From positions 1 through 23,851 of IMG/VR virus record IMGVR_UViG_3300046822_000057: 23,851 bases of DNA. One strand, given 5' to 3'. Source of the DNA: a virus. This document shows positions 1 through 21,594 of this stretch, piece by piece; the first letter of the stretch is position 1, and every line of letters begins with the position of its first letter. The position numbers were made by a program, and so were the translations under genes. Under the pieces are notes generated by a model. The model saw nothing but the letters and a program-made list of their open reading frames with translations. It was not told where the DNA came from and made no database searches.

Positions 1-1
1 G

Positions 2-442
2 ACGCTGGGTTTCTTTAACCAGCTGGTGACGGAAATGGAGAAAAAGGTTCACGCCACAATTTATATCGTGGAGAAAGACGGCACCATCGTCGGCACCAGC
101 CATTCCACGGATGAAAAGCTACCGAAACTGGCGTCTCTGGGGGAAAACTCACCGCTGGCCATGCAAATCCGCAAAGGTCTGGATCAGATTAACGACCAGT
201 CAGGCCTGGTGGCGGATTACGACAATGACGGCACGTCGCATACCTTGTTCATGAGTAAAATTCAGGGCCCGTGGTATATCGCGACCGATATGCCGACTAC
301 TCAGTTGCTGGCGCTTAGCCATAGCGTTCTGACGAGCCTCGGGCTGGTGCAAATCCCAATGGTTCTGTTACTGCTGATTGTGCTGATTTGTAGCGCGGCG
401 AAATTTTCTGGACTGTTTCGCGGTCAATTCTGGACTGACTAA
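2..442 (+). pseudogene. Host sensor-domain membrane protein, 5'-partial, cut by the prophage
   Basis: The reading frame is open from base 2 with no start in the window, so the gene begins upstream. The visible part looks like the distal half of a periplasmic Cache/PAS-like sensor domain, with a YIVEKDGTIVGTS strand pair near the start and a GPWYIATDMP strand near the end. A hydrophobic transmembrane segment follows (about 312-400, IPMVLLLLIVLI). Such proteins continue into a cytoplasmic HAMP, GGDEF, kinase or chemotaxis domain. Here the frame instead enters the phage-end repeats at about 404 and stops at 440-442 after a short foreign tail (SGLFRGQFWTD). I infer that Mu-type insertion truncated it and that its 3' part lies beyond the other phage end. 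The output domain cannot be told from this piece. The codons from about 404 onward are phage DNA. Confidence 0.7.
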
Positions 443-2270: not shown

Positions 2271-3337
2271 GCCAGTGGCTCCACATCAATATTCCCCGGC
2301 CTTAACCATTCCCAGGTGGTTTCGTCAATTACTGCCGTAACGTTTCCGGCGGGCGTTATTATTTTTCGGTCCGTTATTCCCGGTATTAATGAAATTTCGG
2401 TTTCGAGCTGAGAAATAATTAGCGACTGGCCCGGCTCCAGGCGGTCCATAAAATCAGTAATGGTCGACTGAACCAGTGGGGTGGCCTGTGCAATCGTCAG
2501 ACCGCTGACCGCTATCTGAACCACAAAATCGACGCTCTTTTTCGTTGGGGCCAGTACCAGCGTGTCCTTCGCTGTTACCGGGCGAACGTCTTCAATGTGT
2601 GCCAGAACGGCGTCTATGAGGTCCTGCGGTGGCAGATCGTTATTCGATGTTATGGCCACATCAACGGTCCCAAGTCCCCGCCGTAGCGGCTCAACATAAG
2701 CCGATGTTACGCCGTCAATTTCCAGCGCCCAGCGCTTATAGTCGTATTTATTCCCGCCCGCTGGCGGCTTACGCAGAATATCCAGGTAACGCGCCAGCAG
2801 GCTGGCATCCGATTCTGCATCGGTGCCGCCCGTCAGCGGGTTAACCGTGACGGCGCTGTTAATGCCTTCAGGGGGGCTGACCAGCGTCGCCGACTGTGCG
2901 GCGCTGCTGTTAGTTGTCGCCCCGGTTCCTGTACTTTTTACGGCGACCTGCGCTGTGCCGTCCTCGCCGATGGTGCAGGCTTCGGTGGTGGCCACGCTGA
3001 CGCCTTCACCCCGGATTTGTGCGCCGCTTGCCAGTACCTTTCCGGCGGTGCCGGTGACGCTGGCCGTCCCTGACGAACTGGTGGCCTTCTTGCGGTAAAC
3101 GTTGCGCTGTTTACATTGCAGTTCCAGATTTTCAGAGTCGGCGGTATCAGGGAAAATCTGACGAACTATCCAGCCCTGATAGGCATAGAGACCATCAGCC
3201 ACGCCCGACACGGCAGCAGCACGGACGCCATAATCGCTGTCTGTGCTGGTGTCGACGTTTTCATCCGGTAGCGCGTTTTTAATATCACGCAGCTGGCGGT
3301 CTGTGCTTTCCGCGACGGTTGGGACCGGAAAAGTCAT
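2267..3337 (-). CDS. Baseplate J-like wedge protein (Mu gp47)
   Basis: This 356-residue protein has the baseplate_J layout: an N-terminal VPTVAESTDRQLRDIKNAL segment, a central valine- and alanine-rich beta region (about 95-170), the family signature GGTDAESDASLLARYLDILR (about 170-189), then GGNKYDYKRWALEIDGVTSAYV. It corresponds to Mu gp47 and is analogous to T4 gp6 and P2 gpJ, joining the wedge around the hub. The start has an AAGGA ribosome-binding site, and its ATG shares one base with the gp46 stop. Confidence 0.92.
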   Translation of the reverse strand: MTFPVPTVAESTDRQLRDIKNALPDENVDTSTDSDYGVRAAAVSGVADGLYAYQGWIVRQIFPDTADSENLELQCKQRNVYRKKATSSSGTASVTGTAGKVLASGAQIRGEGVSVATTEACTIGEDGTAQVAVKSTGTGATTNSSAAQSATLVSPPEGINSAVTVNPLTGGTDAESDASLLARYLDILRKPPAGGNKYDYKRWALEIDGVTSAYVEPLRRGLGTVDVAITSNNDLPPQDLIDAVLAHIEDVRPVTAKDTLVLAPTKKSVDFVVQIAVSGLTIAQATPLVQSTITDFMDRLEPGQSLIISQLETEISLIPGITDRKIITPAGNVTAVIDETTWEWLRPGNIDVEPLA

Positions 3338-3687
3338 TACGTGATCCTTACGGGGTGTTTAAATTTGTGGGGAGTGCCTGAGCTGTCCACGACCGTAATC
3401 AACAAATACAGCCAGCCCGTCGGGCCTTGCTGGGTTTCAACGGTAACGGACTGCGCCCGCCCGTCGTCCAGGAGCGGCTGAAGCGCCTGCTCGGAATACT
3501 GACCCGCCAGCAGCCTTACGCGTGGGACGTCTTTTTCCCGCTTCAGCTCATAGAGACGCGACCCCAGCGCGGGGTCGGCCCAGTAGCTCCCGAGCGGGGT
3601 CTCAAGGCGCAGATAAACCGCGTTCTGAAGGGAATAAATCCGGTTGCTGGTGTAATCGCCGGTAGTGGTAGAGATATTCTGATCCAT
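3337..3687 (-). CDS. Mu gp46-like baseplate/sheath-initiator protein (GP46 family)
   Basis: The 116-residue protein has the GP46 family pattern, with LRLETPLGSYWADPALGSRLYEL-type sequence in the N-terminal half, and lies between the gp45 spike and gp47 genes as in Mu. The family is related to T4 gp25 and P2 gpW, which start sheath assembly on the baseplate. The start is unusual: no Shine-Dalgarno sequence is visible, the upstream stretch is C-rich, and the ATG (3687-3685) lies in the 3' arm of an 11-bp perfect hairpin. I see no better in-frame start. A 53-nt gap separates it from gp45, wide for this operon. Confidence 0.88.
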   Translation of the reverse strand: MDQNISTTTGDYTSNRIYSLQNAVYLRLETPLGSYWADPALGSRLYELKREKDVPRVRLLAGQYSEQALQPLLDDGRAQSVTVETQQGPTGWLYLLITVVDSSGTPHKFKHPVRIT

Positions 3688-3708
3688 GCTGCCAGTGTGG
3701 CAGCATGG
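3684..3708 (-). promoter_or_regulatory. 11-bp perfect hairpin enclosing the gp46 start codon
   Basis: CCATGCTGCCA (3684-3694) and TGGCAGCATGG (3698-3708) form an 11-bp perfect inverted repeat with a 3-nt loop. On the minus strand the gp46 ATG lies in the downstream arm, so mRNA folding would block initiation. No T-run follows, so it is not a typical terminator. Confidence 0.6.
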
Positions 3709-3717
3709 CCAGGGGGT

Positions 3718-3741
3718 TAGCGGCTGAGGGGGTTCAGCGCT
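3718..3741 (-). repeat. 24-nt hairpin repeat, copy 1 (before gp46)
   Basis: The 24 bases 3718-3741 are identical to 15739-15762. On the minus strand they form a hairpin, AGCGCTGA pairing with TCAGCCGCT (one bulged C) around a C-rich loop. This copy starts at the gp45 stop codon and ends 30 nt before the gp46 ATG. Two further degenerate 16-nt versions of AGGGGGTTxxxCGCT flank it at 3711-3726 and 3743-3756. Confidence 0.75.
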
Positions 3742-4403
3742 CAGGGTGTTGGCGCTCCGGTTGGGTTGCCGTCGTTGCCGTTCGGGTGTTGGTGGCCCGT
3801 CAGTGAAATGGTCCCGGCTTTAACATCGCCGTCGGTCTGATAACTGCCGCCGGTCTGCTGGATTGTACCCTCGAACTCAGCAGTCGCGCCACCGTCACCG
3901 CCTTTGATGGCCATGCCACCGTTACCGCTGATTTTTCCCGTCGCGATGACCTCCTGGCTGGCCGTTAGCGTCGGTGTCGTAAAGTCTGCGCTCTCCTCGG
4001 CCTGCACCTCATAGGTCTTACATTTAACGCGGTAGACGTCACAGGTCGCTTCAATGATTTTCCCACGTTTCAAAACCACGCTAGCGCCTTCGTCGGTGTA
4101 CAGAGCCACTTCCCCGGGGCTGAGTTCTTTAAGTCGATAGGTGCCGTGTTCAGTGGCCACAATGACGGTGTGGGACGTCGCCCCGTTCAGCGGGACCGCT
4201 ATCCCCATACAACCGGCGGGCGGGTTTGAGGTGAGGCCGTAGTGCTGAAAATACTCCGCGCCGTCGAGCTTTTCCCCGGCCAGTCCGCTGAGCTGAAGCA
4301 TCTGGACCTTCGTCGTGCTGTCGGTGGAGCTGGTGACGACACGAAATGCCTGGCGAATATTCTGGAGCGCCTGCGAAATGCGCTGGTTTACTTTTTGCCA
4401 CAT
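3741..4403 (-). CDS. Baseplate spike protein (Mu gp45)
   Basis: This 220-residue protein is the membrane-piercing central spike. The N-terminal half forms an OB-fold-type domain (about 30-115, including NPPAGCMGIAVPLNG). The C-terminal half (about 120-200) is a repetitive beta region, as in trimeric beta-helix spikes. The tail ends TGHQHPNG, where H204-Q-H206 is the HxH motif that binds iron at the spike tip in Mu gp45 and P2 gpV. It follows the hub gene gp44 by 10 nt with a GAGGG ribosome-binding site. Length agrees with Mu gp45. Confidence 0.92.
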   Translation of the reverse strand: MWQKVNQRISQALQNIRQAFRVVTSSTDSTTKVQMLQLSGLAGEKLDGAEYFQHYGLTSNPPAGCMGIAVPLNGATSHTVIVATEHGTYRLKELSPGEVALYTDEGASVVLKRGKIIEATCDVYRVKCKTYEVQAEESADFTTPTLTASQEVIATGKISGNGGMAIKGGDGGATAEFEGTIQQTGGSYQTDGDVKAGTISLTGHQHPNGNDGNPTGAPTP

Positions 4404-14612: not shown

Positions 14613-15707
14613 TTATTCCTCGAGTAATTTAGCCATTTCTGCCGGGTCGTTGCCGAACTGGTTACATATCGCGATTTGCTCTGCTGACAATTGCGCAAGA
14701 TTGAGTTTGTCCTCAGGCTTCGGTGGAATAATTGTGTCGCTCTGCTTATGGCTCAGGGCTGCAATTTTCGGGGCGCTGCCCAGCCAGGTTTTGAATGCGG
14801 CCACGTCTTTTTTTCCGTAGTCCTTCGCCCAGTTCTCCTGAACCGGCAGCAGGCGGCCATCGGACAGCGCTGCCTGAACCAGGGTGTCGACCTCCGCCGA
14901 GCTGGAGGTCTGCGACAGAGCCGCCAGGCGGCTTTGTAAATCGGTGACGACCTCTATCGGGGAGTGTTTCGCCGGGTCATAGGCATTGGCAGACAGGCTG
15001 GCGATTTGTTCATCCTTCTGGGCCAGAAGCGCGGACAGACCGACCGAAGCCGCCGCCGTACCCTGACTGCCGGATACGCCATCGATAATCTTTTTCAATT
15101 CTGCGCAGACTTCTTCCGGGGTCGACGTCTCCGGCAGGTTCAGCAGCCAACGCAAATTGGCCAGTAACATGGCAAGTTGTTCTTCATCCACAATGGTGGT
15201 CTCCGTTTCGGTTGATAAGCTGGCAAGACGGCTGGCAGCGGCAAGCATCACCGCGTCCATCCCGTCCAGCGCAGGGGTGTTAGTGAGTGCCGCGTGCAGC
15301 AATTGGCAGACTTCGCCGCGCTTGTTGTAGGTAAACACGGGCGAGATAAAACGATATTCACCGGCAGCAATCATGGCCGCCGCCTTTTCGGTCCATTCCA
15401 CGCCGACGGCGTAGAGACCCACGCCTTCGCGCCATTCCACCTTGCTGAACCAGCCAGACGCCGGGGCGGGCTGGCCATTCTCTGTGGTGCGCAGGGTCTG
15501 ATGTTCGTAGTCGATGACCAGCGGGGTGTTTGCTGCGTCAACCTGTGCCACAAGAGCTGTGGCCAGCTCGGCGTTAATTATCCATTTGCCACCGTCGACG
15601 TCCTGCGGACGACCGTCTACGCCAGCAAATTCCCCGGCGGGGAATAACTGGATCTCGTTTGTGGCTGTATTGATTGCGAGGGCTAAAGCCGCGATACGTG
15701 TTTTCAT
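14613..15707 (-). CDS. Prohead protease with C-terminal scaffold (Mu gpI/Z)
   Basis: I chose the ATG at 15707 (MKTRIAALALAINTATNEIQLFPAGEF), which matches the usual N-terminus of the family, giving 364 residues; an ATG at 15716 and a TTG at 15731 are alternatives. None has a clear ribosome-binding site. The protease part (about 1-155) includes PAGEFAGVDGRP, the conserved LVIDYEHQTL and YRFISPVF motifs. The remainder (about 160-364) is alanine-rich and helical, as expected for the scaffold, which in Mu is also made separately from an internal start (gene Z); a good internal start is not obvious here. The protease cleaves scaffold during head maturation. The 5' region contains a promoter-like element. 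Confidence 0.9.
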   Translation of the reverse strand: MKTRIAALALAINTATNEIQLFPAGEFAGVDGRPQDVDGGKWIINAELATALVAQVDAANTPLVIDYEHQTLRTTENGQPAPASGWFSKVEWREGVGLYAVGVEWTEKAAAMIAAGEYRFISPVFTYNKRGEVCQLLHAALTNTPALDGMDAVMLAAASRLASLSTETETTIVDEEQLAMLLANLRWLLNLPETSTPEEVCAELKKIIDGVSGSQGTAAASVGLSALLAQKDEQIASLSANAYDPAKHSPIEVVTDLQSRLAALSQTSSSAEVDTLVQAALSDGRLLPVQENWAKDYGKKDVAAFKTWLGSAPKIAALSHKQSDTIIPPKPEDKLNLAQLSAEQIAICNQFGNDPAEMAKLLEE

Positions 15708-15738
15708 GGCCAGCATGATGACGCGGTTCAAAACGTGG

Positions 15739-15762
15739 TAGCGGCTGAGGGGGTTCAGCGCT
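15739..15762 (-). repeat. 24-nt hairpin repeat, copy 2 (before the protease gene)
   Basis: Identical to 3718-3741. On the minus strand it is a hairpin (AGCGCTGA with TCAGCCGCT, one bulged C). It begins close to the start point predicted for the promoter just upstream and ends 31 nt before the protease ATG at 15707, nearly the same distance as the first copy from the gp46 ATG (30 nt). Confidence 0.75.
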
Positions 15763-15766
15763 TAGG

Positions 15767-15824
15767 AATATAAAACTGGGGGGAGGACAGAGGCCGAACC
15801 GTTTTTAAACCCTTTTTAAAAACG
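15767..15824 (-). promoter_or_regulatory. Putative activator-dependent late promoter (Mu PI-like)
   Basis: The 15732-15915 gap is the largest between late genes. On the minus strand it holds TATATT (15772-15767), a good -10 box, with no recognisable -35 (GGCCTC at 17-bp spacing). A perfect 10-bp dyad, CGTTTTTAAA (15800-15809) and TTTAAAAACG (15815-15824), is centred about 52 bp upstream of the predicted start (near 15760). Mu has a late promoter, PI, just before gene I that needs activator C bound to a dyad upstream of a weak -35. An outer imperfect inverted repeat (15757-15769 and 15825-15836, AGCGCTTAG-like) encloses the element. Confidence 0.5.
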
Positions 15825-15915
15825 ATTCTAAGCGCTTTTAACCGGGTAAGTGTCACCAGACTGCAATCGAGGGGACTGGAATGCATAGCGGGGATTACAG
15901 CGCGTTTGTGTGTGC

Positions 15916-16467
15916 TTAGTCAATGACGCTGGCGAAATAGCGTTTTGCGGTTTCTTCCAGGTCGACAATGTCACTGTCAATCAGCTGGAGGAACGGACGC
16001 GCAGGCATCTTCACCGTATACGCCCCGACCGTCGCACTTTGCACAAAGTTACTGTTACGCTTTTTGACGAACTGGCGGCTGACGCTGCCGTTTTTGTACT
16101 GCTTAAAATAGAGATTCTGGCTTCGGGCTTCGTGTTTAATTTCGCCCCCTTCATTGTGGATCCTTGCGTATCTGACATTGGTCCCGACCGTGGCGTCGTT
16201 GTTGGTGATGGCGGCGCGAATACTCGCCGCCAGTCGCCCGGACTTCTGAAGTATCTGGCCGGAGCCGCGTCGTTTCGCATAGGCCGGACTCCATCCCATC
16301 CACTTCGGGCGGCCTTCGTGCTGGAAGTTGGTCTCGACCGCGTCCAGCATCGTCCCCGCCAGCGCCGTCATCAGGTCGTGCCGGTCTTTGGTTGCACGAA
16401 TGAGCTTCAGCAACGTGGCGTCATACGCGCTGAGGTCGACTTTTAAATTCAGTGAGTCCTTAGCCAT
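15916..16467 (-). CDS. Virion morphogenesis protein (Mu gpG)
   Basis: The 183-residue protein has the phage virion morphogenesis family pattern: HEGRPKWMGWSPAYAKRR near residue 50-67, ILQKSGRLAASI, VGTNVRYARIHNEGGEI, and MPARPFLQL near the C-terminus. The family includes Mu gpG and P2 gpS, proteins needed for tail completion or head-tail joining. The ATG shares a base with the gpF stop (TAATG). It is the last gene before the gap holding the putative late promoter. Confidence 0.9.
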   Translation of the reverse strand: MAKDSLNLKVDLSAYDATLLKLIRATKDRHDLMTALAGTMLDAVETNFQHEGRPKWMGWSPAYAKRRGSGQILQKSGRLAASIRAAITNNDATVGTNVRYARIHNEGGEIKHEARSQNLYFKQYKNGSVSRQFVKKRNSNFVQSATVGAYTVKMPARPFLQLIDSDIVDLEETAKRYFASVID

Positions 16468-17630: not shown

Positions 17631-19212
17631 TCAGACGCCCCCAGATATCGCCCACAAAGATGGCCTGCTCCAGCAGCTGGCGCAGCTCTGCATCGGGCAA
17701 GGTTGGCCAGGCTTCCGCCAGTATGTTCATCGCCTCGTCTGCGCTCTGCCCCTGCTGGAGCGCCTGAACCAACGGGGCCAGCAGCTCAGCCATCCCCTGA
17801 TTGATATCATCGGCGGGCAGCTCCGCCCGGTCGATGGCGAGCTGGGTGGGGTCGTCATCTTCCGTCGTCTGGTTGCTGAGCGCGGCCAGCCGCAATTGCT
17901 GACGGATGCGGCTCAGACTCGCGGTCCCGCCGCCGGTCGGCAACTGCGGCAGCGCCAGCACTTCCTCGCCATCTTTCGGCGTCGGAATACCGGCTTTCTT
18001 ACGGACCCACGCGGTCGGGATATTCGGCAGGCGGACCTCATTCACCAGCGTGGCGATGGCGTCGGCCCAGTCGCTAATGTCGGTTTCTTCCTGCGTATCG
18101 AAGACCAGACGCGGCAGGCGGCGCGGATGAATGTCGCTGTAACCGTTTAGCGCGGCCAGCATCTGGATCAGGCTGCTGAACATCCCCTCAATCTGGCGGG
18201 CGTCCGCCGTCATCAGGTCGTGGCGGACCTCGTTGTGAACATTCCCCAGCGCGTTGGTCGACGATTTGCCATCGGCCTGACTGGTCAGCGTGCTTCCCAG
18301 TATGGCTTTTGATGTCGTGCGCTCCGCCCAGTCAATCATGGCCATGAATGCGTCAGCGCCACCGCTGGCCGCTTCCTCGAATTTGATTTCATTCCCCTGC
18401 GGAATAGCCGCCACAGCCTCATGGCCGAGGTGGACCAGCGCCTCCAGAATCTTATCGCGGTCCTCGTCGCTGGTTCCCTGTGCGTAGTACGCGATACGGG
18501 CCGGGAGGCCGTAAATTTCCAGGAACTCCGCAAGGTCGCGCAGTGCAAAGTTCTTGAACAGATACGGCCAGACCAGCACACGGTAGAGGCCAGAGGACCC
18601 CACGAACCCGGAGCGGGCGTTATGACGATGAACCAGCCAGCCAAACGGCCACAGTTCTGATCCGCTCTTGCCGTCCTGATAGCTGCCATCGTCCAGACGT
18701 ATCTCGTCGCCCTGGTCTGGCAGCGTGTTAAACCAGTAGTGTGGTCGCAAGTTAATCGACGATGGAAGCCAGACTTTATCCGTCAGTTCCCAGGCAATTT
18801 CCTGGCAGCTGAAGCCGTAACCGACGGCGCTCATCCCGTTGAGGACCACGTCCTCCATGTTCGGAATACCACGCAGCCAGTCATCGATAGCAGCGGTTAA
18901 TTTAAGTTCCTCAGCGCTGGCATTGCGCGGTGGCTCGATTGACCAGTCCAGCGTTAAAAGCGCGTTGCGACGCTTCTCCATCTCCGCGAACAGGTGTCCA
19001 TCGCGTTCTTCCATGTCACCGAATAAACACGCCTGAGCCGACAGGCTCCCCTGTTCTGCGGCCTGGAGAATGCGCGGTAACTTGCGGATATTAAGCCCGC
19101 GTGACGGGTGGTCCGGGTAAATTCGCAGACGGTCCGCGACCTTTACTGTCTGTTCAGTCTTCAGCGTCTCACGCTGGAGCGGTCGACCATATACATCAAC
19201 AATCTGAGCCAT
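17617..19212 (-). CDS. Portal protein (Mu gp29-like, DUF935)
   Basis: The 531-residue protein has the DUF935 portal pattern: LPRILQAAEQGSLSAQACLF (about 45-64), EKRRNALLTLDWSIEPP (79-95), GYGFSCQEIAWEL, and a conserved KAILGSTLTSQADGKSS (302-318) leading to VHNEVRHDLMTAD. It forms the dodecameric ring at the head vertex through which DNA is pumped. The acidic and glutamine-rich C-terminus (after about 430) resembles the portal crown. Its ATG shares a base with the terminase stop (TAATG), and the downstream gpF gene overlaps it. Confidence 0.94.
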   Translation of the reverse strand: MAQIVDVYGRPLQRETLKTEQTVKVADRLRIYPDHPSRGLNIRKLPRILQAAEQGSLSAQACLFGDMEERDGHLFAEMEKRRNALLTLDWSIEPPRNASAEELKLTAAIDDWLRGIPNMEDVVLNGMSAVGYGFSCQEIAWELTDKVWLPSSINLRPHYWFNTLPDQGDEIRLDDGSYQDGKSGSELWPFGWLVHRHNARSGFVGSSGLYRVLVWPYLFKNFALRDLAEFLEIYGLPARIAYYAQGTSDEDRDKILEALVHLGHEAVAAIPQGNEIKFEEAASGGADAFMAMIDWAERTTSKAILGSTLTSQADGKSSTNALGNVHNEVRHDLMTADARQIEGMFSSLIQMLAALNGYSDIHPRRLPRLVFDTQEETDISDWADAIATLVNEVRLPNIPTAWVRKKAGIPTPKDGEEVLALPQLPTGGGTASLSRIRQQLRLAALSNQTTEDDDPTQLAIDRAELPADDINQGMAELLAPLVQALQQGQSADEAMNILAEAWPTLPDAELRQLLEQAIFVGDIWGRLNADS

Positions 19213-20853: not shown

Positions 20854-21594
20854 TTACACCTGATCCATTTCTGCCACGGCCTTCTCGATACGGGCGCAGG
20901 CAATATCAAAATATTCTTGTGAGAGTTCAATCCCAGTGAAGCTGTCACCCCTGACCAGCACGGGGATGGCCGTCGACGCGGACCCCATAAACGGATCCAG
21001 AACATGCGACCCCGGGGCCAGTGGTTTGATGAGTTGCTCCATTACCCGGACCGGCTTCGCCGTCATGTGCAGCTTTTCCGCCGGGTTGACCCGCTCAACG
21101 ATGACGCCCGGGAACGGGCCACCGTGCTGGCACTGGGCCAGTTTGCCGAGGCTACCCCAGACCACATACTCAGCCTGGTGGCGAAAATAGCCGGTGTGGG
21201 GAGCGCGGGAGGATAAGGTCTTGTCCCAGACGACGAGGCCACGCCACAGAACGCCACCGGCCTGAATGACATCGGTTAGCGTAGGCAGTTGCCGCCAGTC
21301 AGAGAAAATCATGAAGTAAGCGCCCGGGCGGGCCAGTCTGGTTGTCATGCCGAGCCAGTGAGAACACCAGAACGCCCAGCTGCGCTGGTCCCGGTTGTCG
21401 CCGCTGAACTCGGGGTGATTGTTATTCCCGGTGTATTTTTCGGATGGTGCGACCGCCCGCTGGCCTTTGTGCAGGCCACCGGAACTGTACGGCGGGTCAG
21501 TAATAACGGCATCGAATCCGGGGGAGAGCGTTGGCAGCACCTCCAGAACATCACCACAGTAAAGCGTTGCATTCCCGATAATTTGCTTTTGCAT
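20854..21594 (-). CDS. DNA methyltransferase (amino-group, beta-class order)
   Basis: The 246-residue enzyme has the catalytic motif DPPY (33-36) near the N-terminus and the AdoMet-binding motif DPFMGSAST (200-208) near the C-terminus, followed by GIELSQEYFDIA. This order indicates a beta-class N6-adenine or N4-cytosine methyltransferase; the two cannot be told apart by motif alone. HMTAKPVRVMEQLI (176-189) precedes motif I, as usual. It is an orphan enzyme with no restriction gene nearby, and probably protects phage DNA from host restriction or marks it. It lies between the small and large terminase genes, where Mu has none. A strong GGGGGAG ribosome-binding site precedes the ATG. Confidence 0.92.
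   Translation of the reverse strand: MQKQIIGNATLYCGDVLEVLPTLSPGFDAVITDPPYSSGGLHKGQRAVAPSEKYTGNNNHPEFSGDNRDQRSWAFWCSHWLGMTTRLARPGAYFMIFSDWRQLPTLTDVIQAGGVLWRGLVVWDKTLSSRAPHTGYFRHQAEYVVWGSLGKLAQCQHGGPFPGVIVERVNPAEKLHMTAKPVRVMEQLIKPLAPGSHVLDPFMGSASTAIPVLVRGDSFTGIELSQEYFDIACARIEKAVAEMDQV

Follow-up and report, generated by a model that had tools for sequence, protein, structure and literature searches.

The DNA analyzed here (the window) is a 23,851-base virus fragment covering the late region of a Mu-like enterobacterial phage, which is transcribed from the minus strand. Read along that strand, the genes follow the Mu order of holin, endolysin, Rz, terminase genes, portal, F, G, and I and then continue to the baseplate and tail fiber. 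Gene I, encoding the head maturation protease (14613 to 15707, minus strand; PHROG 328, E = 3.1e-112), begins with ATG AAA ACA CGT, a start that is aligned across relatives, and its relatives come from enterobacterial and Xenorhabdus prophages. A W-type baseplate wedge gene (3337 to 3687, minus strand) comes after the spike gene, as does Mu gp46. A DNA methyltransferase gene (PHROG 67; 20854 to 21594) separates the genes for the small and large terminase subunits. At the left end of the window (1 to 442, plus strand), an open frame resembles, on reading of its translation, the sensor part of a bacterial protein and may represent host DNA flanking the phage.

A gap of about 200 bases separates G (stop at 15916) from I. 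Alignment of this gap in ten sequences from different lineages revealed three conserved islands: AATCGTTTTTAAAA.GG.TTTAAAA.CGGTT; GCTGAAC.CCCTCA; and, at the start of I, CGTCATCATGC.G...ATGAA. A BLASTn search of the gap against phage records gave no match, nor did a search of Rfam, and an exact 25-mer of the 24-nt element described below had 0 occurrences in viral contigs. Terminator-like hairpins (e.g., AACGCGCTG..CAGCGCGTTTTT) are found just after G in the related records L003, L053, L054, L024, and L026 and look degenerate in the window.

The initial annotation had placed a late promoter of the Mu PI type in this gap, in which an A/T dyad would bind the C-type activator, TATATT would serve as the -10 element, and the mRNA would start near 15760 with a hairpin at its 5' end. 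All of these features exist. The dyad has 14-nt arms (15796 to 15809 and 15815 to 15828) that are 93% complementary, the inner 10 bp without a mismatch, and that enclose a 5-nt center; its midpoint, 15812, lies about 52 nt upstream of the start proposed near 15760. The 23.8-kb window contains no other inverted repeat of this quality, and 8 first-order Markov shuffles gave none. TATATT is present as letters at 15772 to 15767 on the minus strand, no sigma-70 -35/-10 pair is found at that site, and the 24-nt hairpin (15740 to 15762) has a computed RNA fold of -9.7 kcal/mol. A perfect 9-bp inverted repeat, CTAAGCGCT / AGCGCTTAG (15757 to 15765 and 15828 to 15836, arms 62 nt apart), flanks the stretch from the A/T tract to the hairpin core and is not kept in relatives.

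The initial annotation overlooked that the hairpin sequence, unlike the A/T dyad, occurs twice in the window, the other copy standing 12 kb downstream in the interval from the spike gene to W. In a blastn comparison of the record with itself, the hairpin sequence matched a 28-nt repeat at 3718 to 3745, which overlaps the spike gene stop codon (96%, E = 2.5e-8). The core of both copies is CTGA-ACCCCC-TCAG, at 15745 to 15758 before I (PI) and at 3724 to 3737 before W (PW), both on the minus strand, and is the predicted operator for a Mor/C-family activator. In relatives, the motif is also found upstream of W (in the same place in L059, L060, L061, L062, and L065) and at the lysis promoter, Plys (L004, L007, L024, L028, L030, L031, L053, and L054; L027 has a Plys with the different operator described below), where it stands directly upstream of the holin gene in L004, L007, L028, L030, L053, and L054. 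Motif matches with 2 mismatches inside coding sequence (window, L004, L028, and L007) were taken as chance, because no -10 lies at the right distance from them. In a Xenorhabdus-type clade with two Mor-family genes, the C gene, too, has a late-type operator upstream, followed by N24 and AATACT (L030, 1513 to 1526; L024, 1981 to 1994; L031, 1448 to 1461). The arrangement of these sequences suggests that C activates itself in this clade or that one operator serves both Mor and C.

The operator is tied to a -10 hexamer by a fixed distance. Among 26 non-redundant motif copies, which were found without a -10 criterion, NAnnnT stood exactly 25 nt after TCA in 77%, and the other top-ranked offsets reached 15% or less. 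The order right half-site, N24, -10 was found at 21 of 21 sites from different lineages and promoters, three Mu late promoters included (no offset exceeded 8 sites in 5000 shuffles); since some of these sites came from a scan in which the -10 counted toward the score, the unbiased figure is the 77% of 26. In the window, the -10 hexamers exactly 24 nt after the operators are CATCAT at PI (15715 to 15720, minus strand), which is kept in relatives, and CACACT at PW (3694 to 3699, minus strand). The TATATT hexamer at 15767 to 15772, proposed earlier as the -10, is seen only in the window and in 0 of 14 relatives and is probably fortuitous; CATCAT fits the role instead. With ATAA as the right half-site, the -10 hexamers of Mu are TAGACT at Plys, CAAACT at PI, and TATCCT at PP, by our own reading of the annotated promoter stretches (AF083977). 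An alignment of Mu ATAACCCC with TGAACCCC was rejected; the letters are alike, but the register is wrong, since the -10 would then lie at 33 nt and not at 24. On these sequence patterns, the operator and -10 are very likely to be as assigned.

The 24-nt element might instead act as an RNA hairpin (an attenuator or mRNA stability element) or be a REP-type dispersed repeat, as its stable fold in the window and its two intergenic copies could imply. The fold is lost in several clades that keep the linear motif, however, which is why an RNA hairpin was rejected as the conserved entity, and the fixed spacing to the downstream -10 would put the element outside the transcript. A REP-type origin was dropped because the copies of the exact motif sit at late promoters. 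We consider this alternative to the DNA operator extremely unlikely.

In Mu, Plys, PI, PP, and Pmom all require C (PMC4461284), which binds a dyad at its promoters (PMC4287176). Matches to the Mor family (PF08765) were found in 17 of 22 related records, 14 of them over the cutoff, and the Mor/C-family gene lies upstream of the lysis genes. Each of the five C-like proteins tested matches PF08765 as well and, remotely, the solved structures of Mu C and Mor (E = 0.014 to 0.5); phmmer with Mu C as the query found no C-like protein. The C-like activator gene foreseen by the initial annotation is thus present in relatives but not visible in the window, which ends before it. Since the C-type gene stands just upstream of the lysis genes in relatives, the C gene of this phage is placed beyond the end of the contig, as is its Plys.

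The distant clade represented by L027 provides a natural comparison. Its PI operator reads CTAC-GCCCCC-GCAG and its Plys operator CTAC-GCCCCC-GTTA, and both retain the N24 spacing. The helix-turn-helix region of the L027 C-like protein (SITMALTRICPKYGIASTRAWEL) differs from that of the CTGA/TCAG phages (e.g., SIRQAMAVLCPQFGISDRQGWKL in L004). This joint change of operator and helix-turn-helix is as expected if the C-like protein reads the operator. The earlier proposal of an activator diverged from Mu C likewise gains support from the half-sites, which are CTGA/TCAG here and TTAT/ATAA in Mu.

The PI -10 adjoins the start codon of I. CATCAT (15720 to 15715) is followed by GCTGGCC and the ATG at 15707, a distance of 7 nt; at PW, CACACT is followed by GGCAGC and the ATG at 3687, a distance of 6 nt. 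This distance is 6 to 7 nt in 14 of 15 PI sequences, including those of Klebsiella phage ST405-OXA48phi1.1 and Pseudomonas phage MP38, and the L027 type alone differs. Among the 19 window genes, pairing with the anti-Shine-Dalgarno sequence is weakest for I (-0.9 kcal/mol) and W (-1.5 kcal/mol), with the other 17 ranging from -4.1 to -12.6 kcal/mol. Because the -10 adjoins the ATG and these Shine-Dalgarno sequences are the weakest of the 19, the I and W mRNAs are predicted to be leaderless, a reading of the sequence that we consider probable. Transcription of I would begin at the A of its ATG or 1 nt before (15707 to 15708, minus strand), and the W transcript would be a second leaderless late mRNA. 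The earlier placement of the start at the hairpin conflicts with the presence of the shared operator inside that hairpin.

A short leader or another start codon at the same promoter is an unlikely variant. It would accord with Mu and a related (70%-identical) Escherichia coli prophage, which have leaders of about 30 to 40 nt before I, and with an in-frame upstream ATG (MLA-MKTR) in the window. That upstream ATG overlaps the -10, however, and L024 and L028 have it in another reading frame; no Shine-Dalgarno sequence precedes the ATG, and the distance of 6 to 7 nt in 14 of 15 PI sequences recurs at PW. No late start sites were found in the phage Fc02 RNA-seq paper (PMC9936078) or the JBD30 paper (PMC11445458). 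A near-perfect inverted repeat, CCATGCTGCC-ACACT-GGCAGCATGG (3684 to 3708, minus strand), spans the PW -10 and the W start codon, folds strongly, and is kept in relatives L059 to L062; it may be a further operator or a start codon hairpin.

The A/T dyad has a different distribution from the operator. In relatives, it was seen at G-I alone; the Plys and PW promoters all lack it. Its absence from the other late promoters, which the initial annotation had itself named as counting against its model, means by that test that it is not the late activator site. The dyad and TATATT are indeed present, and the dyad is strongly conserved at G-I. Against a role for them as activator site and -10 stand the absence of TATATT from the 14 relatives, the broken symmetry of the dyad in L054 and L028, its varying distance to the promoter, and the loss of the RNA hairpin in L024, L031, L066, and L027. 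We therefore regard the model of the initial annotation as very unlikely in its details. A C-dependent late promoter of the Mu PI type between G and I is nevertheless supported by the motif regulon, the spacing, and the position; the type of promoter was right, and real features had been assigned the wrong roles.

The A/T dyad, together with a TT/AAAA step upstream, forms a phased T/A tract (15796 to 15841, minus strand) that resembles the right arm of the strong gyrase site (SGS) of Mu. The Mu SGS is required at the genome center, and bending motifs recur along its right arm (PMC10052514, PMC12393610). In the G-I gap of Mu, the annotated gyrase cut site (17879/17880) is followed by ATTTTTTAAAACGCGCCACGGGATTTTTAAACCGGTATTTAACGG. 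The T/A steps are 22 and 11 bp apart in the window and 21 and 11 to 12 bp apart in Mu, and 11-bp steps recur in the E. coli relative, ST405, VW-6B, L024, and L027. The tract is at G-I in all relatives, at a relative genome position of 0.488 in Mu, 0.51 in ST405, and 0.50 in VW-6B. In L054 and L028, the symmetry of the dyad is broken yet the phasing is kept, which favors a wrapping tract over a dyad operator. By analogy with Mu, we lean toward an SGS-type tract with a gyrase-wrapping arm; this is the weakest part of the overall reading. A Fourier phasing score ranked the G-I gap second in the window, but it did not single out the SGS of Mu itself and was therefore not used as proof of an SGS.

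At the same promoter, the A/T dyad could alternatively be a second regulatory site of PI (for a repressor or nucleoid protein or as an UP-like element) and not a gyrase site. The distance from dyad to operator, which ranges from about 67 to 114 nt, is nearly constant at 67 to 71 nt in most enterobacterial lineages, and the strong conservation would also suit such a role. On the other hand, the distance is 91 and 114 nt in other clades, the tract lies far upstream of the start, and Mu has the same phased pattern at a mapped gyrase site. We see this alternative as possible but doubtful. In Ab30, the reported candidate SGS occupies another part of the G-I gap, and the insertion-free segment of that phage was for this reason not counted as support for the tract. 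Two palindromes, GGCACATTGTGCC and TTAGGCACAATGTGCCTAA (LN610590, 18758 to 18770 and 18780 to 18798; L073, 459 to 471 and 481 to 499), precede an Ab30 accessory gene, in or adjoining the published insertion-free segment (18736 to 18772). A repressor at these palindromes, rather than gyrase, could explain that segment.

Taken together, the locus is likely to be a C-activated PI promoter with a diverged operator, giving rise to a leaderless mRNA and lying beside an SGS-like tract. The motif regulon, its spacing and conservation, the missing Shine-Dalgarno sequence, and the Mor-family gene in relatives are established here. For activator binding, activation, the transcription start, and gyrase binding, we infer the following course. 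A dimer of a Mor/C-family activator would bind CTGA-N6-TCAG and help sigma-70 RNA polymerase to start at CATCAT, exactly 24 nt after the right half-site, so that transcription would begin at the AUG of I and yield a leaderless mRNA. Besides PI, this activator would also switch on Plys and a third promoter before W. The A/T dyad would stand apart from the promoter and most likely act as the arm wrapped by GyrA in a centrally placed, Mu-like strong gyrase site.

These results give a simple late-promoter rule for Mu-like phages, consisting of a half-site dyad, 24 nt, and a -10, at promoters where programs tuned to -35/-10 pairs fail. They also yield pairs of C proteins and operators for the study of changes in activator specificity, predict leaderless mRNAs of late structural genes that can be tested by phage RNA-seq, and nominate strong gyrase sites in many phages.

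The late promoters of Mu (Plys, PI, and PP; PMC4461284, AF083977) are the closest known counterpart. Like them, the promoters described here stand before I and the lysis genes, have a weak -10 and no -35, carry a dyad with a 6-nt center, and place the -10 exactly 24 nt from the right half-site (ATAA-N24 in Mu); a Mor/C-family gene just before the lysis genes is likewise shared, here in relatives. In contrast to the TTAT/ATAA of Mu, the half-sites are CTGA/TCAG (CTAC/GCAG in L027) and the dyad encloses a C-rich center. We treat the half-site difference as one of specificity and thus class the promoter as a variant of the C-activated late promoter. The third late promoter is before W here and inside N in Mu, and the I and W mRNAs are predicted to be leaderless, whereas Mu has a leader at I. 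The Mu middle promoter Pm with its activator Mor (PMC4287176) is similar in that an activator dimer on a dyad just upstream of the -10 (predicted here) serves a promoter with no usable -35, but PI is a late promoter. As in the Mu SGS (PMC10052514, PMC3820752), the A/T tract lies in the G-I gap at the genome center, with T/A steps phased at about 21 to 22 and 11 bp; its sequence is different, and it forms a near-perfect dyad in most lineages. We slightly favor the view that in several groups of Mu-like phages (enterobacterial, Xenorhabdus, Klebsiella, and Pseudomonas D3112-like) a C-type promoter gives the late head operon a leaderless mRNA, that the operator code of this promoter has changed together with the helix-turn-helix of its activator, and that a conserved SGS-type tract adjoins it, with Mu and its leader as the exception.
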